Shown: positions 1,429-60,759 of the stretch, piece by piece
Layout: each line of letters begins with the position of its first letter
Numbering within the stretch: the first letter of the stretch is position 1
Assembly: GCA_902776365.1 (NCBI GenBank)
Contig: CACYPU010000002.1
Span: 257,180 to 321,179, forward strand
DNA from: an uncultured Bacteroidota bacterium
Lineage (GTDB): Bacteria > Bacteroidota > Bacteroidia > Bacteroidales > P3
Direction: 5' to 3'
Length of the DNA: 64,000 bases
Translations under genes and position numbers: made by a program
Notes under the pieces: generated by a model
Told to the model about the DNA's origin: nothing
Seen by the model: the letters and a program-made list of their open reading frames with translations, nothing else
Databases searched by the model: none

Positions 1429-1461
1429 CTTACTCCTCTCTTACTCCTCTCTTACTCCTCT
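1429..1461 (+). repeat. Three tandem copies of an 11-nt unit
   Basis: CTTACTCCTCT is repeated three times without change in the intergenic region before the DUF6266 gene. It resembles the GAGGAGT-type arrays found elsewhere in the window, read on the other strand. The rest of the 1383-1544 gap is AT-rich and shows no other feature I can name. Confidence 0.9.
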
Positions 1462-1544
1462 CCTAATAAAATTTTTCTTGAGTAAGCAATAATAAAGAGA
1501 AAATAACGTTAGAATAAATAAATAATCAATAAAAACATATTCTT

Positions 1545-2315
1545 ATGGCTAAGCAACAGTCTGGTATTCTGGGAGGTTACGTCGGAAAGGTGGGGACCGT
1601 GGTGGGGTATTTCTGGAACGGGAAGCCCTGCATGCGGGCCTACAAACGGCAGGTGAGGAACCCGCGCACGGCGGCGCAGATGGAGCACCGCAGGATGTTC
1701 AAGCAGGAGGTGCAGCTGGCGGCGAAGATGCGTTGGGCCGTGAACACGACGCTGCGCGATGCGGCACGCGAGGCCGGCATGACGGCCTACAACCTCTTCG
1801 TCAAGGTCAACCAGCCGGCCTTCGGCATAGCCGACGAGCGGCTGCTGGTGGACTACAGCGCGCTGATTCTCAGCATGGGCGACGTGGCGCAGGTGCAGCT
1901 CCAGGCGATGGAGTGGACGGCCGACAACGTGCTGAGCGTCAGGTTCGACCGCGGCCGGGGCAGCGGCTACGACCACGTGTACCTATATGTATATGTACCG
2001 GAACTGGGGACGGGCTTCCTGTCGGCGCCGGCCTACCGGCGCGACAAGCGCATAGCCCTCGCCTTGCCCGACGAGTATGCCGGCCACGACGCCCAGGTGT
2101 ACCTCATGGTGCAGTCGCCCGACGGACGCTGGAGCGACTCGCTCTACGCCGGCGAGATAGCGCTGAATAAGATTGTTGCAATGGAGGAAGAGGACCTTGA
2201 ATCTACGCCAGCAGCTCCGGATTTTGTCGCTTCTACAGCCTCGGTTCCCACAGCACAGGGTGTCTCCGCTGTAGGTGCTGAGAAATCCTCGATACCGAAG
2301 CGAGGACTGCCGTAA
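1545..2315 (+). CDS. DUF6266 family protein
   Basis: The N-terminus (MAKQQSGILGGYVGKVGTVV, then GYFWNGKPCMRAYKRQVRNPRT) carries the GILGGFxGKVGTVVGxxWxG and NPRTxAQ pattern of DUF6266, a Bacteroidota family of unknown function often found in several copies per genome. The protein has 256 residues. The middle contains beta-strand-like stretches and an odd YLYVYVPELG segment; the C-terminal 35 residues are of different composition and possibly unstructured. No signal peptide or membrane segment is evident. It lies alone between a terminator and a decayed toxin-antitoxin pair on the opposite strand. Confidence 0.75.
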   Translation: MAKQQSGILGGYVGKVGTVVGYFWNGKPCMRAYKRQVRNPRTAAQMEHRRMFKQEVQLAAKMRWAVNTTLRDAAREAGMTAYNLFVKVNQPAFGIADERLLVDYSALILSMGDVAQVQLQAMEWTADNVLSVRFDRGRGSGYDHVYLYVYVPELGTGFLSAPAYRRDKRIALALPDEYAGHDAQVYLMVQSPDGRWSDSLYAGEIALNKIVAMEEEDLESTPAAPDFVASTASVPTAQGVSAVGAEKSSIPKRGLP

Positions 2316-2321
2316 CTCTTG

Positions 2322-2689
2322 TTATATTTCGATGAGCATTTGTTCTATGGTGGCCTTGACCAGAGGAATGTCTTCCTTGATAGTAAGGAGAACCACCTCG
2401 GCATCGACTTAGAAATAGTGATGTGCTATCTTGTCTCTCATACGCATCATGCTACCCCATTGTAATTGTGGATAGCGTGGGAGTAATTCTCCGTCGGAGA
2501 CCTTGTCAAGATTCTTGACGGCCTCACCCATGGCTATCAGGTTCATGCACACAGCATCAAGTATCACCATGCCACTGGGAGTGCTGAGGATGTCATTGAT
2601 GTCGTTTATGTTCGCTGTGCGTTTGTCGATAGTGTCAACAAGCGTTTTTTTTGTTGCAAAGCATTGATGGCTAAATCCCGGTCAAACAT
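2322..2689 (-). pseudogene. hepT: HepT-like toxin RNase, broken by frameshift and stop
   Basis: Minus-strand reading gives MFDRDLAINALQQ, then an A8 tract where one extra A would continue into VDTIDKRTANINDINDILST and the rest of a HepT/DUF86 protein. The RX4HXY signature is kept (RDKIAHHY), but three codons after it a TAA stands where HepT proteins continue (HHYF-stop-VDAEVVLL); reading resumes in frame to a natural stop at 2322. HepT is the RNase toxin of the HepT/MntA system. Two independent lesions argue for a true pseudogene rather than one sequencing error. The start overlaps the mntA stop by 8 nt, the normal arrangement. Confidence 0.85.
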
Positions 2690-4670: not shown

Positions 4671-4671
4671 G

Positions 4672-5946
4672 TTAGTGTATGATGAGTTTTTTTGAGGCGG
4701 AGCCTTGGGGGGTGTGGAGGCGGAGGAGGTAGACGCCGGGGGCTAGCGTGCTGACGTCAATGGTGATTGTCTGATTGCGTGAATGCTTGAATGCTTGAGT
4801 GTAGACTTCGCGGCCCTCCAGGTCAAGAATCTGCAGCCACTTTTCGCCTTCCGTGTTCTCGAAGCACTCCACAGTGACGGTATTGGTGGCGGGATTGGGG
4901 GAGAGGGAGAAGAGCGGAGCGTGGAGGTCGGGGTTGTCGATGCCCACGGGGGCGGGGGCGTAGTAGAACATGCGGGCGTAGCTCCAGGGGCTCCAAAGGA
5001 GGGTGTCGAAGGGCGAGTCCATGTAGTTGCAGGCGCGCTGGAGACGTATGTAGTAGCGCCCTTCGGGGAGGCCCATGTGGGCCATGAGGCTGTCGGTGAG
5101 GTGGAAGGTGCTGTCGGTGAGGGTGTCGGAGAGGAAGATGAGCGTGGAGTCGGGGTAGGAGTGGATGGCGATGCGGTAGAGGTTGGTGTCGCCCTCCCAC
5201 CAAGCGAAGCGCACGCTGCCCTGCTGGCTCTCGACGATTTCGGGCCTCGAGGCCGGCGGACACGGCAAGCTGAGGATGGGAAAGATGCCGCCCCAGGTGT
5301 AGAACGCAAAACCACCGAGGGGGCCATATTCTTCGTATTCATAGTGAGAATAACCACCAGTCCCATTTGCGCATTCTGTCCTAAAAGTGCTGTCCTTATA
5401 ACATGAAAGTTCACGGAGGCTGAATGGTTGCTCTATGGCCGTTGTCTTGTAGAAAAAGGTGTCCGGGACAAGGACTGGATAATTGAATAGATAGATATGA
5501 CAGGGCGCTGTGGCGTTATATGTAGTGGTGTCCACACTCTCGTAAAACTTGTTACTCCATTGGTATTTATAAAACATTTTTTTGTGGTAGAAGTTATCGC
5601 TGCAATTAAGTGAGTCAATGGGTTGAGGATGTTCCCAGAAGTAAATAGGTTCCCAATAAAGACCCACCGTCAATTCGGCCGGCAAAGTTGAGTCCGATGT
5701 GATGGCGATACCATATACTTTAATGCTGCTACCGTCTTTACTGTGTACAATATTTTCTATGTAGTATTTATTATGAATATAATTGGGAGGATAACGAAAT
5801 GTTTTTAGGCCTGTGCTCCGGTTTTCCCCCAACAAAATATGTGAATTCGGGTAACAGAAACACGGATCCCTAAAGGGAATTGTATCCTGTGCTGACAGGA
5901 AGTTTGCCAGCAATAAACAAACTAATAAAAAGAGGTATTTTTTCAT
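4672..5946 (-). CDS. Secreted protein with type IX sorting domain
   Basis: The protein begins with a signal peptide (MKKYLFLLVCLLLANFLSAQ) and ends with a type A C-terminal sorting domain: SLSPNPATNTVTVE, LDLEGREVY, LAPGVYLLRL, KKLIIH. Such proteins cross the outer membrane through the type IX system and are attached to the surface or released. The roughly 320 residues between contain a fibronectin-like stretch (PPASRPEIVESQQGSVRFAW, later YYIRLQRAC), but no enzyme signature is recognisable. ATG at 5946 (MKK) is preferred over 5952. It is the last gene of a minus-strand run starting with GH20. Confidence 0.85.
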   Translation of the reverse strand: MKKYLFLLVCLLLANFLSAQDTIPFRDPCFCYPNSHILLGENRSTGLKTFRYPPNYIHNKYYIENIVHSKDGSSIKVYGIAITSDSTLPAELTVGLYWEPIYFWEHPQPIDSLNCSDNFYHKKMFYKYQWSNKFYESVDTTTYNATAPCHIYLFNYPVLVPDTFFYKTTAIEQPFSLRELSCYKDSTFRTECANGTGGYSHYEYEEYGPLGGFAFYTWGGIFPILSLPCPPASRPEIVESQQGSVRFAWWEGDTNLYRIAIHSYPDSTLIFLSDTLTDSTFHLTDSLMAHMGLPEGRYYIRLQRACNYMDSPFDTLLWSPWSYARMFYYAPAPVGIDNPDLHAPLFSLSPNPATNTVTVECFENTEGEKWLQILDLEGREVYTQAFKHSRNQTITIDVSTLAPGVYLLRLHTPQGSASKKLIIH

Positions 5947-6521: not shown

Positions 6522-7460
6522 TTAGAGGGTTTCGAAGGGGTTTGTTTGGGTGAAGTTGGGGCGGTAGTTGTTTTCGGATTGGAGTTCTTGGAGCCAGCCG
6601 TTGAAGCCCAGCTCGTTGTAGAGGTTGGCGACGGTGGCGTATTCCTCTTCGGTGAGGGTGCGGTCGAGAGGGGAGGGGAGGCCGGGCCGTGGGGGGAAGT
6701 ATTGGGACATGAGGGAGAGGTGAAAGGTGAAAGGTGAAAGGTGAGAGGTGAGAGCGTGGAGGTGGTGGAGGACGTGGAGGGAGTTGTCGATGTGGCCGGG
6801 GAGGACGAGGTGGCGGACGATGAGTCCGCGGTAGGCGATGCCGTCGTCGTCGACCTTGAGGCCGCCGCCGACCTGGCGTATCATCTCCTGTAGGGCGGCG
6901 GTGGCGACTTCGGGGTAGTCGGGGGCGTGGCTGTAGAGGCGTGCGAGGTCGGGGTCCATGTATTTGAAGTCGGGGAGGTAGATGTCGACGAGGCCTTCGA
7001 GGGAGCGGAGGGTGTCGACGGATTCGTAGCCGCTGCTGTTGTAGACCACCGTGGGGTAGAGTCCGCGTTGGTGGATGGCCTCGAGGAGTTCGGGGATGTG
7101 GTCGGCATAGTGGGCGGCGGTGACGAGACCGAGGAGGGAAGGTGAATGGTGAGAGGTGAGAGGTGAGAGGTGAGAAACAATCTGGTCGGCGAGTTGGTCG
7201 ACGGAATATCTTTCACTTTTCACCTTTTTACCGCTGATTTGGTGGTTCTGGCAGTAGATACATTGGAGGTTGCAGTGGGCGAAGAAGACGTTGACGATGG
7301 GGTTGAGTGGGGGCTCCTCGCCGCGGTGGAGTACGACGGAGGCCACCTCGAGGTCGGAGGAGGCACCGCAGAAGCCGCGAGAGGCAGCATCACCCTCCTG
7401 GGGGAGGGGGCGTCGGTCAGCGCCGCATCTTCTGGGACATAATGTACAACCGCCAGTCAT
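6522..7460 (-). CDS. Radical SAM protein, PflA/YgaF-like activase family
   Basis: The protein has an N-terminal Cys-rich segment (CTLCPRRCGADR) and the radical SAM cluster motif CNLQCIYC followed by QNHQIS, as in the putative pyruvate-formate-lyase-activating family. The later VYNSSGYESVDTLRSLEG and PDFKYMDPDLA blocks fit the family. The start is taken at ATG 7460; a TTG two codons upstream is also possible. Two GGTGAAA/GGTGAGA arrays lie within the gene and are translated as HLSPLTSHHSP (after the cluster domain) and TSHLSPFTFHLS (near the C-terminus). The substrate is unknown. The closeness of hydE is suggestive but not proof of a joint role. Confidence 0.8.
   Translation of the reverse strand: MTGGCTLCPRRCGADRRPLPQEGDAASRGFCGASSDLEVASVVLHRGEEPPLNPIVNVFFAHCNLQCIYCQNHQISGKKVKSERYSVDQLADQIVSHLSPLTSHHSPSLLGLVTAAHYADHIPELLEAIHQRGLYPTVVYNSSGYESVDTLRSLEGLVDIYLPDFKYMDPDLARLYSHAPDYPEVATAALQEMIRQVGGGLKVDDDGIAYRGLIVRHLVLPGHIDNSLHVLHHLHALTSHLSPFTFHLSLMSQYFPPRPGLPSPLDRTLTEEEYATVANLYNELGFNGWLQELQSENNYRPNFTQTNPFETL
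6719..6753 (+). repeat. Five 7-nt units (GGTGAAA family) inside the radical SAM gene
   Basis: Three GGTGAAA and two GGTGAGA units follow directly on one another. On the coding (minus) strand they read TTTCACC/TCTCACC and encode part of TSHLSPFTFHLS. The total of 35 nt is not a multiple of three. Confidence 0.95.
7141..7175 (+). repeat. Five 7-nt units (GGTGAGA) inside the radical SAM gene
   Basis: GGTGAAT and four GGTGAGA units, the same family as 6719-6753 and in the same gene. The coding strand gives SHLSPLTSHHSP. Confidence 0.95.
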
Positions 7461-7487
7461 TTTCAATTTTCAATTTTCAATTTTAAA
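7460..7487 (+). repeat. Four 7-nt units (TTTTCAA) at a start codon
   Basis: TTTTCAA is repeated (last unit TTTTAAA) exactly up to the ATG of the radical SAM gene. It fills most of the gap to the small lipoprotein gene. Confidence 0.85.
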
Positions 7488-7494
7488 TTCGTCC

Positions 7495-10682: not shown

Positions 10683-12185
10683 ATGGCATCATTGAAGAAA
10701 CTCTTGTCGGACTCGCTCGTATACGGGCTGAGCAGTATAGTGGGCAGGTTCTTGAACTACCTGCTTGTCCCGCTCTACACCTACCATATCTCCGCCGCCT
10801 CGGGCGGCTACGGTGTAGTCACTAACATCTACGCCTACACGGCGTTGCTGCTGGTGATTCTCACCTTCGGCATGGAGACTACCTTCTTTTATTTTGCGAA
10901 TAAGAAGAGTGAGCCGTCGTCAGTGGAAAGTGGGCAGTTGGGTCCTGTTTTTTCCACTGTTTTGGGCTCTGTGGGGACGGTGTGTGTGGTTTTTGTCCTC
11001 GGTGTCCTCGCGCTGCTGGGCCCTATCTCGGAAGCAATGGGCTACAGCGCTCATCCCGAGTATATTGCGGTGATGGCCATCGTGGTGGCGCTGGATGCTT
11101 TCCAGGCCATCTTGTTTGCCCGGCTGCGTTTCGAGAACAAGGCGTGGAAATTCGCTGCGCTGAAGCTCGCCTTCATCGTCCTCAATATCGGACTGAACCT
11201 CTTCGTCTTCCTCCTCGCTCCCAAGCTGCAGCATCTGCCCTTCATGCAGTGGTATGACGAGCAGAACAACGTCGGCTATATCTTCTATATCAACCTGATA
11301 TGCACCGCCCTCGTCACCTTCGGATTCTGGAAGGAACTCAAGGGTTTCCGTTTCTCGTTTTTCAATTTTCAATTGCTTAAGCGCATGCTTAAGTACACGT
11401 GGCCGCTGCTGGTCTTCGGCATCGTAGGCATCCTCAACCAAGTGCTGGACAAGATACTCTTCCCCTTCCTCTACCCCGGGGCCGACATGCACGAGCAGCT
11501 TGGCATTTATGGCGCTTGTGTGAAGATAGCCATGATTATGGCGATGATTACCCAGGCTTTTCGCTATGCCTACGAGCCTTTCGTCTTCTCCAATGGACGT
11601 GATACGAAAAGTAGAGAAAGTCAGGCTCTTGTGATGAAATATTTTGTCATGTTCACCTTGCTGGCTTTCATGGTGGTGGTGTGCTACATCGATGTCTTCA
11701 AGTATATCATCAAGCAGGACTACTGGGAGGGCTTGCGGGCGGTGCCCATCGTGATGATGGCCGAGATACTGATGGGCGTTTACTTCAACCTCTCGTTCTG
11801 GTACAAGCTGACGGAGAAGACCTACTGGGGTGCCGTGATGAGTGCTGTGGGGTGTGGTGTGCTGGTGCTGGTCAATGTGTTGCTGGTGCCCCGAATTGGC
11901 TATATGGCCTGCGCCTGGGGTGGCCTGGCGGGCTATGGCACCTGTGTGCTGTTGAGCTATTTCATCGGTCAGCGGCACTACCGAGTACCCTATCCTGTGG
12001 CGTCCATTCTGGGCTGGTTCGCACTGGCTCTGGCACTCTATGCCGTCAGCACGCTGGTCTATATCGACAACCTCTGGCTCCGTCTGGCCTATAACACCCT
12101 GCTCTTTGCCATCTTCCTCGGAGCCCTCCTCTGGAGTGAGCGCGCCCTGGTGGGTCGGGTGGTGAAGAGGTTTTTGAAAAGATAG
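10683..12185 (+). CDS. Wzx-type oligosaccharide flippase
   Basis: A 500-residue integral membrane protein with about 12-14 hydrophobic segments, opening with KKLLSDSLVYGLSSIVGRFL and LNYLLVPLYTYHISAASGGY, typical of polysaccharide-biosynthesis (MVF/MATE-like) flippases. Such proteins flip lipid-linked glycans across the inner membrane. The start ATG 10683 has a GGAG motif in front. A TTTTCAATTTTCAATTG stretch inside the gene (near 11358) looks like a trace of the TTTTCAA repeat family. It is next to, but separated by a promoter from, the polyene operon. Confidence 0.85.
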   Translation: MASLKKLLSDSLVYGLSSIVGRFLNYLLVPLYTYHISAASGGYGVVTNIYAYTALLLVILTFGMETTFFYFANKKSEPSSVESGQLGPVFSTVLGSVGTVCVVFVLGVLALLGPISEAMGYSAHPEYIAVMAIVVALDAFQAILFARLRFENKAWKFAALKLAFIVLNIGLNLFVFLLAPKLQHLPFMQWYDEQNNVGYIFYINLICTALVTFGFWKELKGFRFSFFNFQLLKRMLKYTWPLLVFGIVGILNQVLDKILFPFLYPGADMHEQLGIYGACVKIAMIMAMITQAFRYAYEPFVFSNGRDTKSRESQALVMKYFVMFTLLAFMVVVCYIDVFKYIIKQDYWEGLRAVPIVMMAEILMGVYFNLSFWYKLTEKTYWGAVMSAVGCGVLVLVNVLLVPRIGYMACAWGGLAGYGTCVLLSYFIGQRHYRVPYPVASILGWFALALALYAVSTLVYIDNLWLRLAYNTLLFAIFLGALLWSERALVGRVVKRFLKR

Positions 12186-12210
12186 TGGGTAGTTGGTAGT
12201 GGTCAGTGGG
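12183..12210 (+). repeat. Four 7-nt units (TAGTGGG family) after the flippase gene
   Basis: TAGTGGG, TAGTTGG, TAGTGGT and CAGTGGG begin over the flippase stop codon. The following 12211-12341 stretch is AT-rich and holds a weak inverted repeat (GTTAAAA...TTTTAAC near 12246-12267) of unknown meaning. Confidence 0.85.
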
Positions 12211-12341
12211 TAGGGAAAAATGGGGAAAGTGTGAGGTCTTATGGGGTTAAAAACATTAGGTTTTAACGGCTGAAAAGTTAAAACTTATCACGTAATCCGT
12301 TGATTTTCGTTTGTTTGCGTTTTATATTCCAATATTAATCT

Positions 12342-28673: not shown

Positions 28674-28688
28674 ACTTTAAACCTTAAA
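28654..28688 (+). repeat. Five 7-nt units (CCTTAAA) between MMPL and oxidoreductase genes
   Basis: CTTTAAC, CGTTAAA, CCTTAAA, CTTTAAA and CCTTAAA provide the last codons and stop of the MMPL gene and nearly the whole gap to the next start. Confidence 0.95.
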
Positions 28689-28693
28689 CTAAA

Positions 28694-41765: not shown

Positions 41766-41800
41766 AATTCTTAATTCTTAATTCTAAACTCTTAATTCTA
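41766..41800 (+). repeat. Five 7-nt units (AATTCTT) filling an entire intergenic gap
   Basis: Two AATTCTT, AATTCTA, AACTCTT and AATTCTA occupy exactly the 35 nt between the dihydroorotase start and the stop of the WG-repeat gene; no other intergenic base exists. Confidence 0.95.
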
Positions 41801-44507: not shown

Positions 44508-44588
44508 TAGTGGATAGTGGGTAGTTGGTAGTGGGTAGTGCTTGCCGAAAATGCTACCCACTATCCACTACCCACTACCAACTTATAA
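44508..44588. repeat. Inverted pair of five-unit heptamer arrays before elbB
   Basis: Five TAGTGGG-type units (44508-44542) are followed, after TGCCGAAAATG, by five reverse-complement CTACCCA/CTATCCA-type units (44554-44588). The two arms can pair along most of their length, giving a hairpin that ends 4 nt before the elbB ATG. It may terminate the gamma-lyase transcript or affect elbB translation. Confidence 0.9.
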
Positions 44589-44592
44589 TACA

Positions 44593-49456: not shown

Positions 49457-49495
49457 CCTAGGATAGCCTGGGACTTCCTAGGAAAACCTAAATAA
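49446..49495 (+). repeat. Five 10-nt units (ACCTAGGATA) between kdsA and the exonuclease gene
   Basis: Two ACCTAGGATA, GCCTGGGACT, TCCTAGGAAA and ACCTAAATAA run from inside kdsA to 2 nt before the next ATG. Each of the first units contains a CCTAGG palindrome. Confidence 0.95.
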
Positions 49496-49497
49496 GA

Positions 49498-50431: not shown

Positions 50432-50523
50432 CTTGTACGATTGTTGTACGTTATTTGTCCGTTATTTGTACGATGTTTTATCGTACAAGTATCGTACAAG
50501 TATCGTACAACTAACGTACAAAT
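50432..50523. repeat. Hairpin built of four 11-nt units per arm (copy 2)
   Basis: Left arm: four units of type CTTGTACGATT/GTTGTACGTTA (50432-50475). Loop TTTT (50476-50479). Right arm: four units of type ATCGTACAAGT/AACGTACAAAT (50480-50523). The architecture is identical to 36605-36697. It lies between convergent genes, just after a terminator. Confidence 0.93.
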
Positions 50524-50541: not shown

Positions 50542-51750
50542 TTAGAAGGTGTAGGTGAGGCCCATCATGCGCGTCTGGGGAGCGTTGGCGGAGGACTTGA
50601 AGGTGGGCAGGAGGTCGATGAAGAACTCTAGTCTGTGCAAGTTTCCAAGGCCGACGCCGATGGAGGCGCGGAGGTTGAAGTGGTTGAGGATGTCGACCTT
50701 CTCATGGGTGGTGTGGCGGTGGTTGTCGGCGTCGAAGGTGGTGGAACTGAGGCGTGGGGTGAAGTTGTAGGTGGGGGCGAGGCTGGCGTAGAGGAGCACA
50801 TACTTCCAAGGGTTGTATTTCAGACGGACGGGCAGGCCGATGGACCAGTAGTAGAGGCTCTGGCGCGGCGGCGTGGCACCGTAGGAGGGGTCGAGCACCA
50901 GCTGGTCGTTCTGGGCGGCGACGACATTGTCGAGCTGCATCCAGGTGGCGCTGGCGTCGATATTGAGGTTCCAGGACCAATGGTTGCTGATGGGGAAGTC
51001 GTTGATTTGCCCTAAAATGTGGAATTCGAAGGCATGGTTGGTGTTGTAGGGCGAGCCCTGCTGGTTGCTGCTGAAGGCCACGGGCAGGGAGATATTGAGG
51101 CCGAGACCGATGGTCATGCCGAGCATTTTCGGAGCGCGCTCGTAGTCGGACTGATGGTATTCACTCTGGATGTCGCCTTTGGTGACAGTGCTGTGGGCGT
51201 AGGCGGTAACGTTGGTCTTGCCGCCCGTGACGTGGCGCAGGTCGAGGGTGGCATTGGTGAGCATGATGCCGGTCGTGCCGCGGTTGAGGAGGGTGTCGAC
51301 GACGAGGACGGCGCCGCTGTCGGCTGTAATGCTGAGGTCGGTGGAGTCGAAGTCGAAGTAGGCGATGGTGAGGCGGGCGTTCTTTTCGAGGGAGATGTCT
51401 TCGATGGGCTGCGCAGTGAATATTTCCACCACCGTGGTGCGGGGCATCCATTGGTTCCGCAGCAGTGTGTAGTAACCGTCGTGCTTGCCGGATTTCTTCA
51501 CGCTCAGCAGGGTGGGCTCCTCGTCAATATTCTCGAAGAAGTGGGCGCAGGGGGTGGTGACCATCACGCGGGTGCGTTCTCCTTCGGGCACTTGGATGAG
51601 ACGGGCGTCCCAGCCGCTCTGGATTTCGAGGTGGTTGACCTTGATGTTGTGGTCGAATTTCTGGTCTATTTGGTAGAGATCCTGCGCTTTCAAGGTGAAA
51701 GGTGAAAGGTGAAAGGTGAAAGTCAGGAGGATGATGGCTATGCGTTTCAT
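50542..51750 (-). CDS. Outer-membrane protein with adhesin-like N-terminal part, ECF-sigma linked
   Basis: The 402-residue protein has a signal peptide whose core (FTFHLSPFTLKAQ) is encoded by TTTCACC heptamers. A DUF2807-like beta helix follows (NHLEIQSGWDARLIQVPEGE, DISLEKNARLTIAYFDFDST, ALVVDTLLNRGTTGIMLTNA), then a barrel (MTIGLGLNISLPVAF, YYWSIGLPVRLKYN, IGVGLGNLHRLEF). It is the third gene after an ECF sigma factor and its anti-sigma protein, so it is probably part of that regulon. Confidence 0.75.
   Translation of the reverse strand: MKRIAIILLTFTFHLSPFTLKAQDLYQIDQKFDHNIKVNHLEIQSGWDARLIQVPEGERTRVMVTTPCAHFFENIDEEPTLLSVKKSGKHDGYYTLLRNQWMPRTTVVEIFTAQPIEDISLEKNARLTIAYFDFDSTDLSITADSGAVLVVDTLLNRGTTGIMLTNATLDLRHVTGGKTNVTAYAHSTVTKGDIQSEYHQSDYERAPKMLGMTIGLGLNISLPVAFSSNQQGSPYNTNHAFEFHILGQINDFPISNHWSWNLNIDASATWMQLDNVVAAQNDQLVLDPSYGATPPRQSLYYWSIGLPVRLKYNPWKYVLLYASLAPTYNFTPRLSSTTFDADNHRHTTHEKVDILNHFNLRASIGVGLGNLHRLEFFIDLLPTFKSSANAPQTRMMGLTYTF
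51691..51725 (+). repeat. Five 7-nt units (AAAGGTG) encoding a signal peptide core
   Basis: CAAGGTG, three AAAGGTG and AAAGTCA. On the coding (minus) strand this is the TTTCACC family and encodes TFTFHLSPFTLK. Confidence 0.95.
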
Positions 51751-52961: not shown

Positions 52962-54512
52962 TTATTTTGCCTCGCAACCAAGGATTTCGATGCGGCGTGC
53001 CATAGCGGCCGGGAGGCCGTAGACAGGGTCGGCGGACTGGCTTTCGGTGGTGGGTTCCACGGCACCGTGTGGCTTTTGCTCGATGGTGAGGCGGTGGGTG
53101 TCAAGGGCTTCTTCGAAGATGCCTTCGCGCCACGCGCGTATCATATTGATAAAGGAGGCGATGCGACGGTGCGAGAGGTTGAGGTTGTAATCGGTCTTGT
53201 AGACAGGGCTTGCATAGCCGGCGATGGTGATGGTGACACTGCGGCCTTCGTCGAGCAGGGCTTCGACATAGTCGAAGAGGGCTTCGACGCGGTTGTAGTT
53301 GCCCACGACGCAGGTGTCGAAGAATAGCGCCATCATGGCAGAGTCGGCGGCGTTGTGCTGGCGGGCGACGTACTCGTTGCGAAGGGAGGCGTAGCGCCGT
53401 TGGCACTGGGTGTAGGTGGTGGCAGTGTTGATGTCGCGACTTTGTGGGTCGGGCTCGTCGTTGTGGAAGTAGAGGAAGAGGGGAAACATAAAGGAGTTAA
53501 GAGTTAAGAGTTTAGAGTTAAGGGTTGAAGTGTCGACGGTATCTAAGGATGCAATGGGTTCTTCAATTACCCACTGGCTACTGTCTACCGCCCAGCGGTA
53601 GAGGTCGTTGCAGCAGGAGGAGTCGGTCTGGTAGTAGCTGTCGGCGCGGTTGGAGGCGAGGTAGCCGCCGAGAGGGCGGTTGTTGGTGCTGTCGTAGGAG
53701 GTGATGGTGAAGTAGAGGTCGTTCTCGGGACTGTTGAGGCAGGCGCATACACTCTCGGTGTGCTGCCAGGTGTTGCGCTGGCCCACGGAGCAGTAGATGT
53801 CGTGGTTGCCGAGGCCTCCGGGTCGGTTGCTGCTGAAGTAGAGGACGCCGTTGCGTTGGTCGTAGAAGGGGGTGAGTTCGTCGTGGGCGGAGTTGATCTG
53901 GGGGCCGAGGTTTACGCACTCTTGTGCGCGGCCGTTCTTGATGAGGCTGTACCAGATGTCCATGCCGCCGAGGCCGCCGGGACGGTCGGAGACGAAGTAG
54001 AGGATGACGGTGCTGTCGGCCAGTCGGGCAACGGCGGGATGGGTGGAGGTTGTCCCCGGGAGGTTCACGGGTCCTTGCAGTTTGACGGGTGTTTCCCATC
54101 CGCGGCGTTTCTTGTGTTTGGCAAAGTATATCTCGCAGTTGAGCGTCTCGACACTGCCGCGGGTGAAGTAGATGTCGAGGGTCCAGGGGTCGAAGGCGAC
54201 GTTGCCGGTATGGTCGCGGCGGCTGTTGAGGCCCCAGCGGTCGGCGTGGGGTTTGCCGTAGCGGCCATTGCGGGCGATACGGGCTTGGTAGACTTGCATC
54301 ACGGGTCCGCCGACATCGAACTGGCTGTTTAGGCTCGCGTCGTGCTCCATGGAAGAGTAGACGAGGACGGTGTCGCCGAGACGGAAGGCGCCGGTCTCGC
54401 TGCCGGTGGTGTTGATGGGCTTCTCAAGGTGCGTCACGGTGTACTGCCCGCGAGCCATCGAGCTCGCCAGCAACACAAACAACAGCAGTATGGACCTCAG
54501 ATGATAGGACAT
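52962..54512 (-). CDS. PD40-OmpA family protein, partner of PorP/SprF
   Basis: The 516-residue protein has a signal peptide (MSYHLRSILLLFVLLASSMA), PD40/WD40-like propeller strands (YFVSDRPGGLGGMDIWYSLI, YFSSNRPGGLGNHDIYCS) and an OmpA-like C-terminal domain (FDYVEALLDEGRSVTITIAG, NLNLSHRRIASFINMI). This pairing with a PorP/SprF gene is typical of type IX secretion of surface proteins. ATG 54512 is chosen; upstream reading is a shadow of the PorP gene. The first 16 nt overlap PorP. A GAGTTAA array splits the two domains (STLNSKLLTLNSF). Confidence 0.85.
   Translation of the reverse strand: MSYHLRSILLLFVLLASSMARGQYTVTHLEKPINTTGSETGAFRLGDTVLVYSSMEHDASLNSQFDVGGPVMQVYQARIARNGRYGKPHADRWGLNSRRDHTGNVAFDPWTLDIYFTRGSVETLNCEIYFAKHKKRRGWETPVKLQGPVNLPGTTSTHPAVARLADSTVILYFVSDRPGGLGGMDIWYSLIKNGRAQECVNLGPQINSAHDELTPFYDQRNGVLYFSSNRPGGLGNHDIYCSVGQRNTWQHTESVCACLNSPENDLYFTITSYDSTNNRPLGGYLASNRADSYYQTDSSCCNDLYRWAVDSSQWVIEEPIASLDTVDTSTLNSKLLTLNSFMFPLFLYFHNDEPDPQSRDINTATTYTQCQRRYASLRNEYVARQHNAADSAMMALFFDTCVVGNYNRVEALFDYVEALLDEGRSVTITIAGYASPVYKTDYNLNLSHRRIASFINMIRAWREGIFEEALDTHRLTIEQKPHGAVEPTTESQSADPVYGLPAAMARRIEILGCEAK
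53494..53528 (+). repeat. Five 7-nt units (GAGTTAA) at a domain linker
   Basis: Two GAGTTAA, GAGTTTA, GAGTTAA and GGGTTGA, between the propeller and OmpA parts of the protein at 52962-54512. The coding strand gives TLNSKLLTLNS. Confidence 0.95.
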
Positions 54513-55540
54513 GGAAGTGCGCGTTTCTTGTTGTCTTTCTTGCCGATGCGGTAGATGACGCCGAGTTCGAAGGCGCCGAGGGTGTGGCTGGCTTCGGCGA
54601 GGGTGGAGAGATTGGCGTCGTAGGAGAAGGCGAAGGTCCAGGAGAGCCAGTCGACGGCGAGGTTGATGGAGAGTGCGTCGCCGTGGCGGCCCAGGAGTCC
54701 GGCGCTGAAGGCGAGGTAGTCGTTGGGGCGCTCGTTGACGTACCATTTCACGTCGGCACCATAGACCAGTTCGCTGAAGCTCTTCTGGTGCTGGAATCCC
54801 ACCACGGGTTGCAGGCCCCATTGCGACAGCCAGCGCCATTCGCCGCGGGCGTAGAGGTTCCATTTGCGGCTGAGGCGGGTGTCGTTCATGCCTAGGTAGG
54901 AGATGTCGGGTTCGTTGATGTTACGGACGGAGAAGCCTACTTTGGTGTAGATGGTCTCGGTATGCTGGCAGAACCAGGCGACGCCGGCGCCGAGGGTGGG
55001 GTAGAGGGCTTTCTCGCGTGAGAAGGGCTCGGTGCCGTCGGGGAGGACGATGTTTTGTGGGTTGAAGCCAGTCTGTCCGATACCCAGCTCCGCGGCCACC
55101 GACACCAGGTTGTCGCCGTTGCCGACGGCCTGGTAGTAGGAGAGGATGGCGGAGGCGGAGGTGGAGCCGTAGTCGAGGTCGCCGGCACGGTCGGCGCTGA
55201 CCCAGAGGCCGGCACTGAGGCCGTTTTTATTACGTTTGCTGCGCATGAGACTGAGCTCGCCGGTGACGCTGATGGTCTGGAAGGGGGTGGTGACTGAGGC
55301 CCACTGGTTGCGGTAGACGGCGCCGAAGCGTGCCTGACCATCGAAGAAACCGCTATAGGCGGGGTTGAAGAGCAGCGGGTCGAGGTCGAGGAAGGAGAAG
55401 TGGATGTCCTGCGCTTTCGTCGGTAAAGGGAGGAGTGCCGGGAGTGCAAGGAGTGCAAGGAGTGCAAGACAATACCTCCTGCTGGTGCATTTGTCTTGCA
55501 CTCCCTGTACTCCTTGTACTCCTTTATACTCCTTTTTCAT
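54497..55540 (-). CDS. PorP/SprF family type IX secretion membrane protein
   Basis: A 347-residue protein with the family mark DIHFSFLDLDPLLFNPAYSG right after the signal peptide, then a barrel (FGAVYRNQWASVTTPFQTIS, SAGLWVSADRAGDLDYGS, YLAFSAGLLGRHGDALSINL). SprF-like proteins help type IX secretion of specific surface proteins. The N-terminus (MKKEYKGVQGVQGVQDKC) and the signal core (LALLALLALPALLPLP) are encoded by two inverted GAGTGCAAG/ACTCCTTGT arrays. The start overlaps the tsaD stop (ATGA). Confidence 0.88.
   Translation of the reverse strand: MKKEYKGVQGVQGVQDKCTSRRYCLALLALLALPALLPLPTKAQDIHFSFLDLDPLLFNPAYSGFFDGQARFGAVYRNQWASVTTPFQTISVTGELSLMRSKRNKNGLSAGLWVSADRAGDLDYGSTSASAILSYYQAVGNGDNLVSVAAELGIGQTGFNPQNIVLPDGTEPFSREKALYPTLGAGVAWFCQHTETIYTKVGFSVRNINEPDISYLGMNDTRLSRKWNLYARGEWRWLSQWGLQPVVGFQHQKSFSELVYGADVKWYVNERPNDYLAFSAGLLGRHGDALSINLAVDWLSWTFAFSYDANLSTLAEASHTLGAFELGVIYRIGKKDNKKRALPCPII
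55432..55532. repeat. Inverted pair of 9-nt unit arrays at the PorP signal peptide
   Basis: Four GGAGTGCAA-type units (55432-55467) and, after a 28-nt spacer, four to five units of type TTGTACTCC (from 55496). The halves are partly complementary. They encode the whole N-terminus and signal peptide core of the PorP-like protein. Confidence 0.9.
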
Positions 55541-57650: not shown

Positions 57651-60485
57651 ATGAAAAAAATATTTTTTCTTGTAATTTCGGCATTTCTGTTTGCTGCCTG
57701 TGGAGAAAAGACACTGACTTCGTATGTCAACCCCTTAGTTGGCACCGACGGCCACGGGCACACCTTCCCAGGCGCCATCGTACCATTCGGCCAAATACAG
57801 CCTTCTCCCGATACCCGCCTTGAAGGCTGGGACGGCTGCAGTGGTTACCACTACTCCGATGACACCATCTATGGCTTCAGCCACACCCATCTTAGCGGTA
57901 CCGGTTGCTCGGACTACGGAGACGTGCTTCTGATGCCGGTGGACCAGTTGCAGATGCTCGACATGAAGTTCGGCGATTCGATGCGTATGCACTACTGTTT
58001 CGAGTTCTCCCACAACGACGAGGTCGCCCAGGCTGGCTATTACAGTGTGAAACCTCGCAAGGGCAGGATTACCACGGTGAAGCAAGTGGAGCTCACCGTC
58101 GACCGGCGTGTGGCCTACCATCGCTACACTTACGAGCAGATAGATAACGGTATCGTCCTTGACCTTCGCCATCGCGATGTGCTCCTCAGTGGCAAGATTA
58201 TGGAACGCGACGGCATGATTGTGGGCTGGCGCGAGAGCAACGCCTGGAACCCCGACCAGCACCTGTACTATGCTATCCGCAGCAGTGTGCCGTTCGAGAT
58301 TGTGCATTACAGCGACGATTCGACACAGGCTATTCTTCACTTGCCCCCACACACCGAGCAGGTGGAGTTACAGGTGGCCATCAGCGGTGTGGACATCGAG
58401 GGCGCTATAGGCAACCTCAACGCTGCTGAATATAAAAATTTTGATGAGGCCCGCAAGGGTGCCGACAGCACCTGGGAGGCCGCCCTCGGCAAACTGAAGG
58501 TAGAAGGCGGCACCGATGAGCAGAAACGCTGCTTCTATACCGCACTCTATCATTGCATGACGTCGCCTTATCTCTGGAGCGACGCTGATGGCCGTTATCG
58601 TGGTACCGATAATCAGATTCACACCGTCGACCCCGGCCGCGAGGTCTACACAGTTTTCTCCCTCTGGGACACCTACCGCGCCCTGCACCCGCTGCTAACG
58701 CAGATTGAGCCCGAGCGTACCGTCGACTTCGTATATACCGCCATGAAGAACTTTGAGCAGGGCGGAGAATTGCCCATGTGGGAACTGGCTAGCCACGAGA
58801 CCCACTGTATGATAGGCTATCACGCCGTGCCGATGATGCTCGAGGCCTATATTCATTTGGCAGAATCGGATGGTACCCTTGCCGGTTACACGCCACAGCA
58901 GATGCTCGAAGCCATGGTGGCTACCAGTAACCGCACCGAGGCCCACAGAGCCTATGGGACACAGGGTTACCTCTCCTCGGAGCTTGACAACGAGACCGTT
59001 AGCAAAACTCTTGAATACGCCTATGACGACTGGTGCATCGCTCAGATGGCCGAATTTGCCGGCGACACCGCCATGGCCCGCACCTACTGGATTCGTAGCC
59101 AGAGTTGGCAGAACATCATCGACGGCAATGGCTTTGCCCATCCGAAGCGCAACGGTGCCTGGTTGACTCCTTTCGAACCCACCGAGGTGAACAACCACTT
59201 CACCGAGGCCAACTCTTGGCAGTACAGCACCTATGTGCCCCACGATATAGATCAGTGGGTCGAGCATCTGGGAGGAAAAGACAAGGCCATTGAATTCCTC
59301 GACAGTCTCTTCGAGGGCCACAACGCCATGAGTGGCCGCGACCAAGCCGACGTCACTGGCCTTATCGGAATGTACGCCCACGGCAACGAGCCGTCGCACC
59401 ATGCCGCCTGGCTCTATTCCCTCCTTGGTCAGCCGGAGAAGACCGAAAAGTATGTCCACCGCATTCTCAACGAACTCTATACCAGCAAGCCCGACGGCCT
59501 TTGCGGCAACGAGGACTGCGGCCAGATGAGCGCCTGGTATGTCCTCGCCGCCCTCGGCCGCTACGAAGTATGTCCCGGCAGCGGCATTTGGGTCGAAACC
59601 AAACCCATATTTACCTGTCCATCCTCTCTTTTCACCTCTCACCTTTCACCTTTCACCTTGCCCGATTCCCTCCGCATCACCCCCTGTCCCGTCTTCAACG
59701 ACTGGCGGATGCAGCTGGCGGCCGAAAATAGGGATTGCGAGGTGTGTGTGAATACCCAGAAGGAGGTACATTTTTTTGCCCCTGATGACAAAGGAGGATT
59801 GAGACCCATATTTGTCTGTCAAAGGGACAGGGACGATGCTCCGGCAAAAACAAATTGTATTCCATATACGCTGGTTGGCGATGATGAATATCCCAAGATA
59901 ACAGGTCTGCAACCCTCAAGGCGGGATAAAGAGTTTGAGATAACCTATGCAGCGCAGATTGAAGGTCTTCTGGTCTCGCAGCCAGTCACCCAGCGTATCG
60001 TCCGTTCTTCAACCGACAAACATGTCACCTACCTCACGAAGCCCGCTCCCCAGTACACCGAGAACGGCCCCGAAGGCATGGTCGACAACCTTTTTGGCAA
60101 CGCTAACTACCGCATCGGTGGCTGGCAAGGTTGGCAGGGAGACATGGTGGCAACAGTGGAACTCGACAACGAGCAGACCGTCCGCAGCGTGGGCCTCGAT
60201 TGTCTGGAGAACATGCGCTCATGGATATTCTTCCCGAAGAGCATTTCGGTTGAATATAGTCTTGACGGCAAGAACTGGAAACGCTACGGCGAGGTGCAGA
60301 ACACACAGTTCGCTGCTGTACATGCCCGTCAGGAGGAGAGTGTGACGCACACCTTCGCTGTCAACGGCAATGCTCGCGCCAAATACGTAAAGATTACGGC
60401 CAAGAATTTCGGCCCGCTTCCCAACTGGCATGTCAGCGCCGGCGAGCAGGCTTGGCTCTTTGCAGATGAGATAATAATTAAATAG
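57651..60485 (+). CDS. GH92 alpha-mannosidase lipoprotein with C-terminal F5/8-type domain
   Basis: The 944-residue lipoprotein (lipobox FAACG) has GH92 blocks in order: YVNPLVGTDGHGHTFPGAIV, SGYHYSDDTIYGFSHTHLSG, VFSLWDTYRALHPLL, MWELASHETHCMIGYHAVPM, HGNEPSHHAAWLYSLLGQPE, GNEDCGQMSAWYVLAALGRY. GH92 enzymes are calcium-dependent exo-alpha-mannosidases. A C-terminal beta sandwich (VATVELDNEQTVRSVGLDCL, SWIFFPKSISVEYSLDGKNW) looks like an F5/8 type C domain. A TTTCACC array interrupts the late catalytic region (FTSHLSPFTLPDS). Confidence 0.92.
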   Translation: MKKIFFLVISAFLFAACGEKTLTSYVNPLVGTDGHGHTFPGAIVPFGQIQPSPDTRLEGWDGCSGYHYSDDTIYGFSHTHLSGTGCSDYGDVLLMPVDQLQMLDMKFGDSMRMHYCFEFSHNDEVAQAGYYSVKPRKGRITTVKQVELTVDRRVAYHRYTYEQIDNGIVLDLRHRDVLLSGKIMERDGMIVGWRESNAWNPDQHLYYAIRSSVPFEIVHYSDDSTQAILHLPPHTEQVELQVAISGVDIEGAIGNLNAAEYKNFDEARKGADSTWEAALGKLKVEGGTDEQKRCFYTALYHCMTSPYLWSDADGRYRGTDNQIHTVDPGREVYTVFSLWDTYRALHPLLTQIEPERTVDFVYTAMKNFEQGGELPMWELASHETHCMIGYHAVPMMLEAYIHLAESDGTLAGYTPQQMLEAMVATSNRTEAHRAYGTQGYLSSELDNETVSKTLEYAYDDWCIAQMAEFAGDTAMARTYWIRSQSWQNIIDGNGFAHPKRNGAWLTPFEPTEVNNHFTEANSWQYSTYVPHDIDQWVEHLGGKDKAIEFLDSLFEGHNAMSGRDQADVTGLIGMYAHGNEPSHHAAWLYSLLGQPEKTEKYVHRILNELYTSKPDGLCGNEDCGQMSAWYVLAALGRYEVCPGSGIWVETKPIFTCPSSLFTSHLSPFTLPDSLRITPCPVFNDWRMQLAAENRDCEVCVNTQKEVHFFAPDDKGGLRPIFVCQRDRDDAPAKTNCIPYTLVGDDEYPKITGLQPSRRDKEFEITYAAQIEGLLVSQPVTQRIVRSSTDKHVTYLTKPAPQYTENGPEGMVDNLFGNANYRIGGWQGWQGDMVATVELDNEQTVRSVGLDCLENMRSWIFFPKSISVEYSLDGKNWKRYGEVQNTQFAAVHARQEESVTHTFAVNGNARAKYVKITAKNFGPLPNWHVSAGEQAWLFADEIIIK
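59630..59664 (+). repeat. Four to five 7-nt units (TTTCACC) inside the GH92 gene
   Basis: TTTCACC, TCTCACC, two TTTCACC and a decayed TTGCCCG. Translated as LFTSHLSPFTLPDS just after the GSGIWVETKPIF block of GH92. Confidence 0.93.
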
Positions 60486-60492
60486 TAACGAT

Positions 60493-60720
60493 ATGAAAAA
60501 GATTCTTTTGGCTTCCGCAGGTTTGATTGCCTTACTCGCATTGTCTTCGTGCGACAACAAACTGTGCTATTGCTATGAACGCACTTCCGATGGCGTTCTG
60601 CATGAAACGCAGGTTTATACGGATGTGGACACCCCGTGCAATTCGATGTCGAGAGGCAACCGAGGATGTATCGAACGGAACGAGCGTGGTACCATCGATC
60701 CGGAAGACATTGCTAAATAG
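60493..60720 (+). CDS. Small cysteine-rich lipoprotein
   Basis: A 75-residue product with lipobox LLALSSC. The mature part has LCYCYERTSDG, then DTPCNSM and RGNRGCIER. The CxC and the later C-x-x-M match the lipoprotein at 7495-7713, so the two form a family. It follows GH92 by 7 nt and is probably in its transcript. Function unknown. Confidence 0.7.
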   Translation: MKKILLASAGLIALLALSSCDNKLCYCYERTSDGVLHETQVYTDVDTPCNSMSRGNRGCIERNERGTIDPEDIAK

Positions 60721-60724
60721 AGGG

Positions 60725-60759
60725 TAGTGTTTAGTGGTTAGTTAACCATTAACCATTAG
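60725..60759 (+). repeat. Five 7-nt units, inverted inside, between convergent genes
   Basis: TAGTGTT, TAGTGGT, TAGTTAA, CCATTAA and CCATTAG. The halves TAGTGGTTAG and TTAACCATTA are partly complementary. The array fills the gap and covers the stop of the glycosidase gene. Confidence 0.85.

Follow-up and report, generated by a model that had tools for sequence, protein, structure and literature searches.

Many families of short tandem arrays, mostly of heptamers, at shared sites in a genus of uncultured Bacteroidales

Introduction

An excess of heptamers among bacterial repeats is known and unexplained. The STRR sequences of cyanobacteria form few fixed families and are used as strain markers. 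Rehm et al. (2015; PMC4692102) described heptamer repeats of the types GGGNATC and GGGGA(C/T)T in Xanthomonas and Nostoc. In the two Xanthomonas genomes of that account, the GGGNATC repeats belonged to one G-rich family, were 89-93% intergenic and formed close inverted pairs (70 and 75, respectively), and G-quadruplex folding was proposed for them. Direct repeats of TAACTGA were reported from Beggiatoaceae, cyanobacteria and five Bacteroidetes (MacGregor 2015; PMC4679880); according to the same source, some of the Bacteroidetes had other heptamer arrays too, the long ones being absent from a close relative. The original prediction for the present DNA, which knew of no such description for Bacteroidota, is superseded on this point by that report.

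Two further systems are related in form. Interstitial telomeric sequences are described as inserted at double-strand breaks (PMC2246262), and the ribbon-helix-helix (RHH) ParB protein of pSM19035, Omega, is described as needing at least four gapless contiguous 7-bp repeats for full activity (PMC9499535).

The window analysed here is a whole stretch of 64,000 nucleotides from the genome of an uncultured gut Bacteroidales bacterium (G000, the source genome). Its genus is represented by at least 99 species genomes, and many families occur together in a single genome, which allowed the same place to be compared across species.

Results

Arrays of the window

A strict scan (ungapped, score ≥ 12) of the window found 18 runs of period 7, 2 of period 8, 2 of period 9, 5 of period 10 and 5 of period 11, that is, 32 runs unmerged across periods, in agreement with the about thirty arrays originally counted by eye. 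The density was not reproduced by chance: 20 resamples (10 Markov-1 and 10 Markov-3) gave a mean of at most 0.1 run per period from 7 to 11. There were no strict runs at periods 4, 5, 12, 13 and 15, and periods 14 and 21 were multiples of 7. Tandem Repeats Finder (TRF; score 30) returned 97 overlapping rows, and an Rfam search of the window gave no match at the gathering threshold.

The predicted dense set of many families, biased to heptamers and lying both inside and between genes, was real (Table 1). All of the families named beforehand were located: TTTCACC (23658 and 59632), AGTGGTC/TAGTGGG (19754, 22304, 29737 and 44508), CTAAAC (22349), CCTTAAA (28656), AATTCTT (41766), GAGTTAA (53494), and the longer units AGGGAGTGCA (20231, 26575 and 27136), ACCTAGGATA (49445) and CAATCAAA (24885). 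Units were heterogeneous, adjoining directly and differing by 1-2 bases, as had been noted; phase-variable contingency repeats would have near-perfect units with copy numbers that vary among siblings. The earlier list of arrays stood with corrections, in that the array at 1428 had a period of 11 and four sites (36607/36654, 44508/44554, 50433/50479 and 55432/55500) were inverted pairs. The period-11 arrays, intergenic in 5/5 cases, look like a class apart from those of periods 7-10.

Arrays of periods 7-11 were present in the source genome and, in stretches of the window's region, in 12/12 congeners. An assembly artefact is unlikely because of this recurrence and because arrays of about 31 nt would be shorter than a sequencing read. 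The original prediction had allowed that related genomes might be equally dense, and here the outcome was divided: at least one strict period-7 array occurred in 39/80 loci and none in 41/80, the 80 loci belonging to Bacteroidales, congeners included, plus a few other Bacteroidota.

Table 1. Tandem arrays of the window, with the state of the same site in related genomes (G numbers) where compared
Array	Position	Strand	Location	Relatives and remarks
11-mer TCTTACTCCTC x3.2	1428..1462	.	intergenic	
8-mer, TGATTGCT-type	4764..4798	.	inside minus-strand ORF	
7/14-mer AGTTAATAGATAAA	6492..6524	.	gap between two minus-strand genes	G068, 15 nt instead of 39; G048, 4 nt instead of 41
AGGTGAA x5.3	6718..6754	.	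radical-SAM-like gene (below Pfam cut-off)	GAGAGTT array in G048; none detected in G068, G002, G009, G106, G058, G034
AGGTGAG x5	7141..7175	.	same gene as 6718..6754	AGGTGAA in G002, GGAAAGT in G068, 8-mer GATTGTTT in G048; G009, G106, G058, G034 array-free, 6 nt shorter
ATTTTCA x4.4	7459..7489	.	gap	
TAGTGGG x4.4	12183..12213	.		75% matches, TRF only; left border of a gene cluster absent here from some relatives
AATTAAA	13953..13977	.	3' end of aromatic amino-acid lyase gene	
AGTGGNN x4.7	19754..19786	.	between two ketosynthase domain matches	
10-mer AGGGAGTGCA	20231..20274	.	CDS, after ketosynthase domain	
ACTATCC/ACTACCC	21374..21406	.	ketosynthase gene	AGTGGGT family, antisense
AGTGGCC/AGTGGTC x4.6	22304..22335	.	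between two ketosynthase domains	
ACTAAAC x4.7	22349..22381	.	between same two domains as 22304..22335	
10-mer CCTTGCACTC	23065..23093	.	late in ketosynthase gene	
CTTTCAC x4	23658..23685	.	near 5' end of LolA-like gene 23627-24223	probably at signal-peptide position
8-mer TCAAGCAA/TCAAACAA x4.2	24885..24918	.	glycosyltransferase family 2 gene	
10-mer GGAGTGCAGG	26575..26615	.	MMPL/acyltransferase gene	
10-mer GGAGTGCAGG	27136..27180	.	same gene as 26575..26615	
TTAAACC x4.9	28656..28689	.	spans gene's stop and gap to next gene	
GAACTCC-type	29117..29144	.	FAD oxidoreductase gene	
GGTCAGT x4	29737..29765	.	same gene as 29117..29144	
11-mer hairpin element, left arm	36607..36649	.		four units TTGT(A/C)CG(A/T)TA
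11-mer hairpin element, right arm, inverted	36654..36695	.		partner of 36607..36649
AATTCTT x4.9	41766..41799	.	fills stop-to-start gap of two minus-strand genes	G068, 9 nt instead of 42
TAGTGGG x4.7	44508..44540	.	5' arm of intergenic hairpin	
CTACCCA x4.3	44554..44583	.	3' arm of hairpin at 44508..44540	
10-mer AACCTAGGAT, palindromic CCTAGG core	49445..49473	.	gap ahead of start codon	TCCTAGGCTT array in G002, AACCTAGGAT in G106; none detected in G068, G048, G009, G058, G015, G012, G099, G081, G037
11-mer hairpin element, left arm	50433..50469	.	convergent gap	11-mer array in G002, 22-mer array in G048; terminator-like hairpin only in G068
11-mer hairpin element, right arm	50479..50521	.		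partner of 50433..50469
AAGGTGA x4.4, perfect	51692..51722	.	near 5' end of minus-strand gene 50542-51750	
GAGTTAA x4.7	53494..53526	.	CDS	GAGTTAA family in G068, GAGTGGA inverted pair in G002; none detected in G048, G009, G106, G058
9-mer GGAGTGCAA x4.1	55432..55468	.	inverted-pair arm, first 120 nt of PorP/SprF gene	AAGTGGA in G068 and G048, TAAAAAC in G002, AATTGAA in G106
9-mer ACTCCTTGT	55500..55524	.	other arm of PorP/SprF inverted pair	
TCACCTT x4	59632..59659	.	GH92 gene	G068, ACTTTCC array at this place, segment equally long; G048, none

Distribution and families

Coding sequences held 110/261 heptamer arrays (42%). Per base, co-directional gaps (129 in 141 kb) were 11 times denser in heptamer arrays than coding sequence and 12 times denser than convergent gaps (2 in 25.6 kb); these labels come from in-house dicodon gene calls with errors expected, some start-adjacent gap arrays may be coding, and stop-bearing arrays set the stop of the preceding gene. 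A contiguous 260 kb of contig 2 of the source genome had 41 period-7 and 17 period-11 arrays. Densities in the 20 stretches from this genome are inflated, as these were partly chosen on known 11-mer or AGTGG hits, and one of the loci (L210) overlaps the window by 2.8 kb, both being counted. The densest of five genomes sampled was G002 (36 period-7 arrays in 75 kb).

Many families occurred per genome, with 37 canonical heptamers among 141 arrays in G000 (family labels are consensus units). The commonest were AAAGGTG, AAAATTG, AGTGGGT and AAAGTGG; neither GGGNATC nor GGGGA(C/T)T was the unit here, and two exact copies of TAACTGA in a row occurred in 0/263 loci of the present set. AAAGTGG made up 21/60 heptamer arrays in G068 vs 1/141 in G000 (Fisher p = 9e-12), and AGTGGGT 18/141 in G000, 8/17 in G012 and 0/121 in the other three genomes. 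One universal family was rejected as a reading, exact AAGGTGA x3.6 occurring in 3/149 genomes drawn from the order, source genome included. Few heptamer units of the genus contained G and C together (24/268), a scarcity less marked in the 80 wider loci (37/106), and 8-nt units were close to the strand-randomised expectation.

Array length, phase and orientation

The length of period-7 arrays had its mode at 30-33 nt, or about 4.4 units; the corresponding 4.5-unit bin held 146/396 rows, which did not form a falling series from 2.5 units. Median lengths in G000 (score ≥ 13) were 31, 34, 37, 40 and 42 nt for periods 7, 8, 9, 10 and 11, respectively. At a low threshold periods 7 and 11 had a peak near four units and periods 8 and 10 a weaker one; period 9 had no such peak and fell off above 2.5 units. 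Among heptamer arrays that lacked a relative in their own genome, 6/19 were 29-34 nt long, against 126/232 in large families, and the length difference was not significant (p = 0.09); length may therefore arise without inheritance from a template.

Of the seven possible phases, arrays of AGTGGGT used two for their starts in 19/23 cases in G000 and 8/8 in G012, and one for their ends in 7/8 cases in G012. End phases of the other families examined (G000 and G068) were less sharp. Among period-7 arrays of G000, the neighbour within 300 nt was inverted for 16/141 and direct for 7, with 3 in the control; close neighbours in G002, at 74 and 119 nt, were direct. In the 7-mer and 9-mer families examined, inverted nearest pairs less than 150 nt apart had the G-rich arm first (11/11).

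The 11-mer class built intergenic hairpins. In G000 each arm of these elements consisted of four units that varied at a few positions, and in the two elements of the window the arms were 80-83% complementary. Only 2/85 11-mer arrays lay in coding sequence, and density was highest in convergent gaps. These hairpins look like a separate class, and are perhaps protein-binding sites.

Orthologous sites

The mechanism that spreads the arrays was originally said not to be visible; orthologous sites do reveal something of it. An array was present at orthologous coding places in 68/196 pairs (35%) vs 3/1188 control positions (0.3%), and at orthologous operon gaps in 104/173 pairs (60%) vs 43/587 controls (7%), with pairs drawing on sites from both sides. 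At least one relative had a radically different array at 27/81 coding sites and 22/65 gap sites, counted over non-independent focal sites of all species and with one-step changes counted separately. Array places thus outlast array sequences, and the unit or period at a place is often unrelated between species. The position of the hairpin at 44508/44554 was kept in 13/13 species with five kinds of array, which suggests a function at that place.

Compared with array-free relatives, the length difference at coding sites was a multiple of three in 82/85 comparisons, a count limited to sites where array letters were mostly not kept in the relative and omitting 43/128 comparisons with at least 60% of them kept (probably decayed copies). 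The net gain had a per-site median of +12 nt (44 sites). Arrays in genes take the place of native sequence, with the frame kept.

Copies shared mostly the array, not its flanks. A mobile unit larger than the array would be at most occasional: in G000, 3' tails matched at 11/14 or more positions in 5/1,500 same-family and 12/18,338 other pairs. One tail in G068 and the tails of 9-mers were exceptions with matching sequence. At one site an 8-mer, AACGTCAT, was swapped with AAAAGTT between flanks 92-96% identical; such swaps between rare families look like births at the place. A one-step family change inside an array, ACTTTCC/ACTTTCA, kept the register fixed. Median flank identity of species pairs was about 90% at best, and no donor and recipient were close enough for exact junctions.

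Discussion

Relation to described systems

The arrays are a variant of the known dispersed heptamer repeats, and differ by many families, periods of 7-11 and family swaps at the same site. Cyanobacterial STRR sequences, the nearest parallel in the original prediction, are related in kind, with heptanucleotide units in tandem scattered over the genome. A closer match is found in the GGGNATC repeats of Xanthomonas and Nostoc, with the four-unit mode and inverted pairs in common with the present arrays (PMC4692102). Also shared, on the published description, are the period of 7, units varying at fixed positions, and dispersal mostly to co-directional gaps, and GGGNATC repeats likewise lie mostly at the same places in two Xanthomonas species with variation of sequence and length. 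Unlike them, the present arrays comprise many families and periods 7-11, have 42% of heptamers in coding sequence, are mostly not capable of G-quadruplex folding, and undergo whole-family swaps at orthologous sites. The TAACTGA system resembles them in its heptamer direct repeats, many intergenic and of 2-6 copies in its main genome; in that genome, as described and unlike here, related heptamers are rarely repeated and the majority of sets are found directly ahead of starts.

Interstitial telomeric sequences are comparable as short tandem arrays at non-homologous places, with flank deletion in half of the cases (PMC2246262), but consist of one telomerase-made unit, against many units here and no match to the reverse transcriptase domain RVT_1 in 6/13 genomes. 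The parS sites of pSM19035 share the 7-bp repeat and the functional minimum of four contiguous units (PMC9499535); they differ as plasmid sites of 7-10 units bound by an RHH protein, the RHH_1 domain being found here in 0/13 genomes.

Origin of the arrays

The best explanation, to which we hold only tentatively, is ectopic templated copying of modules of about 31 nt, filtered by selection. Modules would be small and dispersed, each made of some four or five units in tandem, chiefly of 7 nt but also of 8-10. The favoured module of a lineage would be copied in trans, as a patch of about 31 nt, into DNA of low constraint (operon gaps, interdomain linkers and N-terminal regions), where it would replace part of the old sequence, older arrays included. 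The writing step may be template switching akin to gene conversion, or gap repair, with another array as template, and selection would purge copies that break frames, bring in-frame stop triplets or hit regulatory DNA. Heptamer module length, lineage-specific families, site persistence, family replacement at one site and in-frame partial replacement of native sequence are what the comparisons establish; the copying step and its trigger we infer. No enzyme was found for it, reverse transcriptase, RAYT and RHH_1 not being common to the array-bearing genomes. The scarcity of heptamers in convergent gaps counts against copying, because neutral insertion does not predict it, and so do the less sharp end phases outside AGTGGGT, the apparent births of rare families in place, flank matches slightly more frequent within a family than outside it, and the hairpin site kept in 13/13 species. 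The explanation is further weakened by the lack of a four-unit peak at period 9 and by lone arrays not being significantly shorter.

That last observation agrees with local replication slippage alone, an unlikely though serious contender, by which arrays would grow in place from chance seeds and a balance of expansion and deletion would hold them near four units. The minimum length for recombination is about 23-27 bp, and the balance could arise as self-overlap passes it, one-unit self-overlap at the mode being about 24 nt for period 7. A published guess for the heptamer excess (cited in PMC4692102) is slippage on the stretch of DNA that the polymerase holds, and the ACTTTCC/ACTTTCA change at fixed register fits slippage; left unexplained are one unit at 21/60 arrays of one species (AAAGTGG, G068), the preferred end phases of AGTGGGT, and swaps of unrelated units or periods at one place. 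Site persistence across species would also follow, in an account that we consider unlikely, if the arrays were binding sites of cooperative proteins (or RNAs), with four contiguous units as a functional minimum and units shifting together with the specificity of the binder. The requirement of pSM19035 Omega for at least four contiguous 7-bp repeats (PMC9499535) and the 11-mer elements, with four units per arm, near-absence from coding sequence and highest density in convergent gaps, are consistent with it. Against it are the 37 canonical heptamers in 141 arrays of G000, the 110/261 heptamer arrays in coding sequence, and RHH_1 matches in 0/13 array genomes vs 8/14 control genomes; the search with the Omega protein itself matched no control genome and so had no positive control. 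It is quite unlikely, but conceivable, that an unrecognised activity writes short tandem arrays of fixed size into gaps or breaks of the chromosome, much as interstitial telomeric repeats are inserted, giving every lineage a dominant unit of its own and rewriting the same places, coding sequence included, repeatedly.

A known mobile system, either a REP/RAYT transposase or a repeat-writing reverse transcriptase, is improbable. Y1 transposases were matched in 11/13 genomes and RVT_1 in 7/13, inverted arms with short loops resemble the REP/BIME layout, and 4/6 Y1 loci (2.3-3.3 kb each) held an array of period 7-11 at the low threshold: several heptamer arrays and one 11-mer (L252), a 73-nt 11-mer array (L251), one 8-mer array (L249) and a 21-nt 11-mer array (L250). 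The arrays of these four loci had no common family, however, and 5/6 Y1 loci had 2-6 GC-rich ordinary REP-type palindromes unlike the arrays (8-bp arms; background 0.09 per kb), the sixth (L253) having none by this criterion. With G009 and G106 carrying arrays and no Y1 match (a soft absence, as these are MAGs), RAYT was not supported as common driver. Nor was reverse transcriptase, for which 6/13 genomes, including the array-densest G002, had no RVT_1 match (incomplete MAGs and divergent enzymes being possible). That four-unit arrays exist because of G-quadruplex folding, as proposed for GGGNATC, is hardly credible. AGTGGGT does give four GGG tracts in four units, and 22 of the 28 arrays with GGG/CCC units were 29-34 nt long; however, the 251/279 heptamer arrays without GGG/CCC in the unit had the same peak (144/251 at 29-34 nt), which refutes folding as a general cause of the four-unit length. 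Phage carriage was also considered, exact pattern searches of viral contigs giving 0 hits for AAGGTGA and 9 for AATTGAA.

If templated copying in trans is true, it would be a source of in-frame protein sequence, in linkers and N-terminal regions, that is invisible to homology methods. The genus in which the arrays were compared appears to take in Candidatus Colimorpha onthohippi.

Array Occurrence and Families

The window's genome (2.23 Mb, 18 contigs, completeness 89.65%) belongs to a genus of uncultured Bacteroidales, and its highest-identity named relatives were for the most part rumen and gut MAGs. Tandem Repeats Finder (TRF) returned 97 rows on the window, and a strict scan found 18 period-7 runs, 14 with periods of 8-11 and zero with periods of 4, 5, 12, 13 and 15. 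Resampled sequence (n = 20) gave a mean of at most 0.1 runs per period and did not reproduce the dense short arrays of 7-nt period noted in the original prediction. Inverted pairs of arrays occurred at 4 window sites.

Sequence sampled from five species of the genus came to 1.42 Mb. Period-7 arrays numbered 141 in 664 kb of the window's own genome (G000), and 60 in 290 kb, 25 in 175 kb, 36 in 75 kb and 17 in 219 kb of species G068, G048, G002 and G012, respectively; a contiguous 260 kb of G000, picked without regard to arrays, held 41. A wider sample of 80 loci (1.62 Mb), drawn from Bacteroidales, some congeners among them, and from a small number of other Bacteroidota, held 106, of which 46 were 29-34 nt long. 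The comparison with related genomes, which the original prediction had proposed, gave a divided answer: arrays were also found in relatives (39 of the 80 loci), but not everywhere, with zero period-7 arrays in 23 kb of some relatives at 56-60% protein identity. The array observation is real and strong, and the trait is patchy among relatives.

Families, as defined by the consensus unit, belong to lineages. AAAGTGG accounted for 21/60 arrays in G068 and 1/141 in G000, AGTGGGT for 18/141 in G000, 8/17 in G012 and 0/121 in the remaining three species, and ACTCATC for 5/36 in G002 and none in the other four species. At a lower threshold, only 19 of the heptamer arrays examined stood alone in their genome, with no relative at a distance of one base or less; 6 of these 19 measured 29-34 nt, vs. 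126 of 232 in large families (p = 0.09).

Module Length, Ends and Composition

The length of period-7 arrays peaked at 30-33 nt (146 of 396 rows in the 4.5-unit bin vs. 38 in the 2.5-unit bin). Period 11 peaked likewise at four units (33 rows), and there was a renewed rise at four units with periods 8 (22 rows, its highest bin) and 10 (10 rows); the length distribution of period 9 had no four-unit peak. The AGTGGGT family had preferred ends, e.g., TAG(TGGGTAG)x4: two start phases covered 8/8 G012 copies and one end phase 7/8. End phases were blurrier in other families. G and C were rarely together in the heptamer unit (244/268 had one or neither, vs. half expected with strands randomised). Period-7 arrays of G000 had a close inverted partner in 16/141 cases and a direct partner in 7 (control 3), and in inverted nearest pairs less than 150 nt apart the G-rich arm led in 11/11 (7- and 9-mer families examined).

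Location of Arrays

Arrays fell into two classes by location, heptamers and 11-mers. Heptamers occurred in CDS (110; 0.81 per 10 kb) and in co-directional (129; 9.14 per 10 kb), divergent (18; 3.33 per 10 kb) and convergent gaps (2; 0.78 per 10 kb), and a further 2 spanned gene ends; the corresponding counts of 11-mers were 2, 31, 28 and 24. In CDS, heptamer arrays had a stop triplet in the sense-read unit in 19/110 cases and in the antisense unit in 71/110, as expected if random arrivals were filtered by selection. In co-directional gaps, the upstream stop was within 8 nt of the array (periods 7-10) in 87/174 cases, partly because arrays carry their own stop codons, and 28 of these 87 also lay no more than 12 nt from the following start.

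The 11-mers of G000 had an inverted partner in 36/49 cases and a direct one in none (control 2), with arms of four TTGTACGATA-type units and a short loop between (14 printed pairs). Elements in species G037 had the same plan with a different unit, and G012 arms had two to four units, again different and perfect for the most part. Unit variants differed between the two arms in G000, so that strict pairing is not the conserved feature there.

Persistence of Places and Replacement of Sequences

Where a relative had tight flanks for an array of period 7-10, it carried an array at the orthologous place in 68/196 CDS comparisons, vs. 3/1,188 control positions, and in 104/173 gap comparisons, vs. 43/587. 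A radically different array (unit with at least two changes, or another period) was present in some relative at 27 of 81 CDS focal sites, with a change of at most one step at 6, the same family only at 14 and none at 34; at 65 gap focal sites the figures were 22, 7, 19 and 17. The places of arrays persist and their sequences do not, an unusual, controlled property.

The hairpin gap of the window (Table) folded in 13/13 species, with folding energies from -20.5 to -49.6 kcal/mol; depending on the species, the arms were of TAGTGGG, GGTTTAA, TTAATGGG, palindromic TCCTTAAGG or CTATAG type. The first 120 nt of a PorP/SprF gene carried inverted pairs of AGGAGTGCA (G000), AAGTGGA (G068, G048), TAAAAAC (G002) or AATTGAA (G106); in G009 a hairpin was present with no array detected, and in G058 one 9-mer array with a weak fold.

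In CDS comparisons with array-free relatives (n = 128), 85 (44 sites) retained less than 60% of array letters, and the length difference was a multiple of three in 82 of these. The per-site median difference of 12 nt (44 CDS sites) was less than the array of about 31 nt, and the array therefore usually substitutes for part of the native sequence. Some CDS sites had the look of plain insertion (+36, 13 comparisons) and others of one-for-one replacement (0 difference, 6 comparisons). Differences in gaps ranged from below zero to more than the array length.

Coordinates of features in the window and in other stretches of the genus
Stretch	Position	Feature	Observation
Window	12165-36741	24.5-kb block; aromatic lyase, ketosynthase, LolA-like, MMPL/acyltransferase and FAD oxidoreductase genes	Presumably aryl-polyene/flexirubin-like, going by gene content; borders with heptamer array and 11-mer hairpin; absent at orthologous place in some relatives, flanks matching within 18 bp (G034) or about 100 (G002)
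Window	21111-23276	Single ORF	Two ketosynthase domains
Window	22304-22381	Arrays between these domains	As if bridging former gene borders
Window	28694-31681	Single ORF	Repeated FAD/NAD-binding matches
Window	44498-44592	Hairpin gap	
Window	49441-49497	Pre-start gap and orthologs	CTAG-centred units about 10 nt apart in several species (by eye); exact arrays vary by species (CCTAGG, CTAG, CTATAG types)
Window	59632	TCACCTT array (G000)	ACTTTCC array in G068, segment lengths equal
L141 (G000 contig 3)	10237-10494	258-bp AATGCGTT/AATGTGTT array, about 32 units	Intergenic, adjoins 11-mer hairpin; longest among stretches scanned
L239 (G002 contig 8)	16046-19938	Several long mixed heptamer arrays, 68-127 nt	Similar composites recur within 4 kb

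Published Parallels and Possible Mechanism

Searches of the open literature turned up no paper on Bacteroidales with four-unit arrays of several families, or on one family taking the place of another at an orthologous site. GGGNATC repeats of Xanthomonas and Nostoc, linked to G-quadruplexes, have a mode at four units, occur in inverted pairs and favour gaps (PMC4692102), as here; in contrast, 251/279 arrays here had no G3 tract in the unit, with the length peak unchanged. MacGregor described heptamer direct repeats in five Bacteroidetes (PMC4679880), and a survey across life noted that prokaryotic phyla show an enrichment of units of 6-9 bp and that Bacteroidota have a high density of repeats (PMC12699852). 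The arrays are a variant of this known heptamer-repeat kind, one in which the place persists while the sequence is replaced. One plasmid parS has a functional minimum of four contiguous heptads (PMC9499535), which is the best hint at a binding function.

The evidence points to templated copying of array patches as a candidate mechanism, in which patches would be copied from a template and then sieved by selection. Unit sequence common to unrelated loci, a shared module size, few flanks in common and repeated replacement at one place argue for such copying, whereas heptamers are depleted in convergent gaps, some swaps are to rare families, period 9 lacks a four-unit peak and no enzyme was found, all of which speaks against it. 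Among 13 genomes, the reverse transcriptase domain RVT_1 was found in 7 and not in the densest, the candidate binder RHH_1 in none, and Y1 transposases in 11. Ordinary REP-type palindromes occurred at 5 of 6 Y1 loci read, and some array, at a low threshold, at 4 of 6. L253 had zero palindromes by the criterion used for the other five loci (L249-L252 and L254), where RAYT-type Y1 genes had GC-rich palindromes nearby, e.g., CCAGCCAATGAATTGGCTGG and CCCCAGACTGCCGTCTGGGG, with 2-6 at each locus against a background of 0.09 per kb; these are an ordinary REP system.
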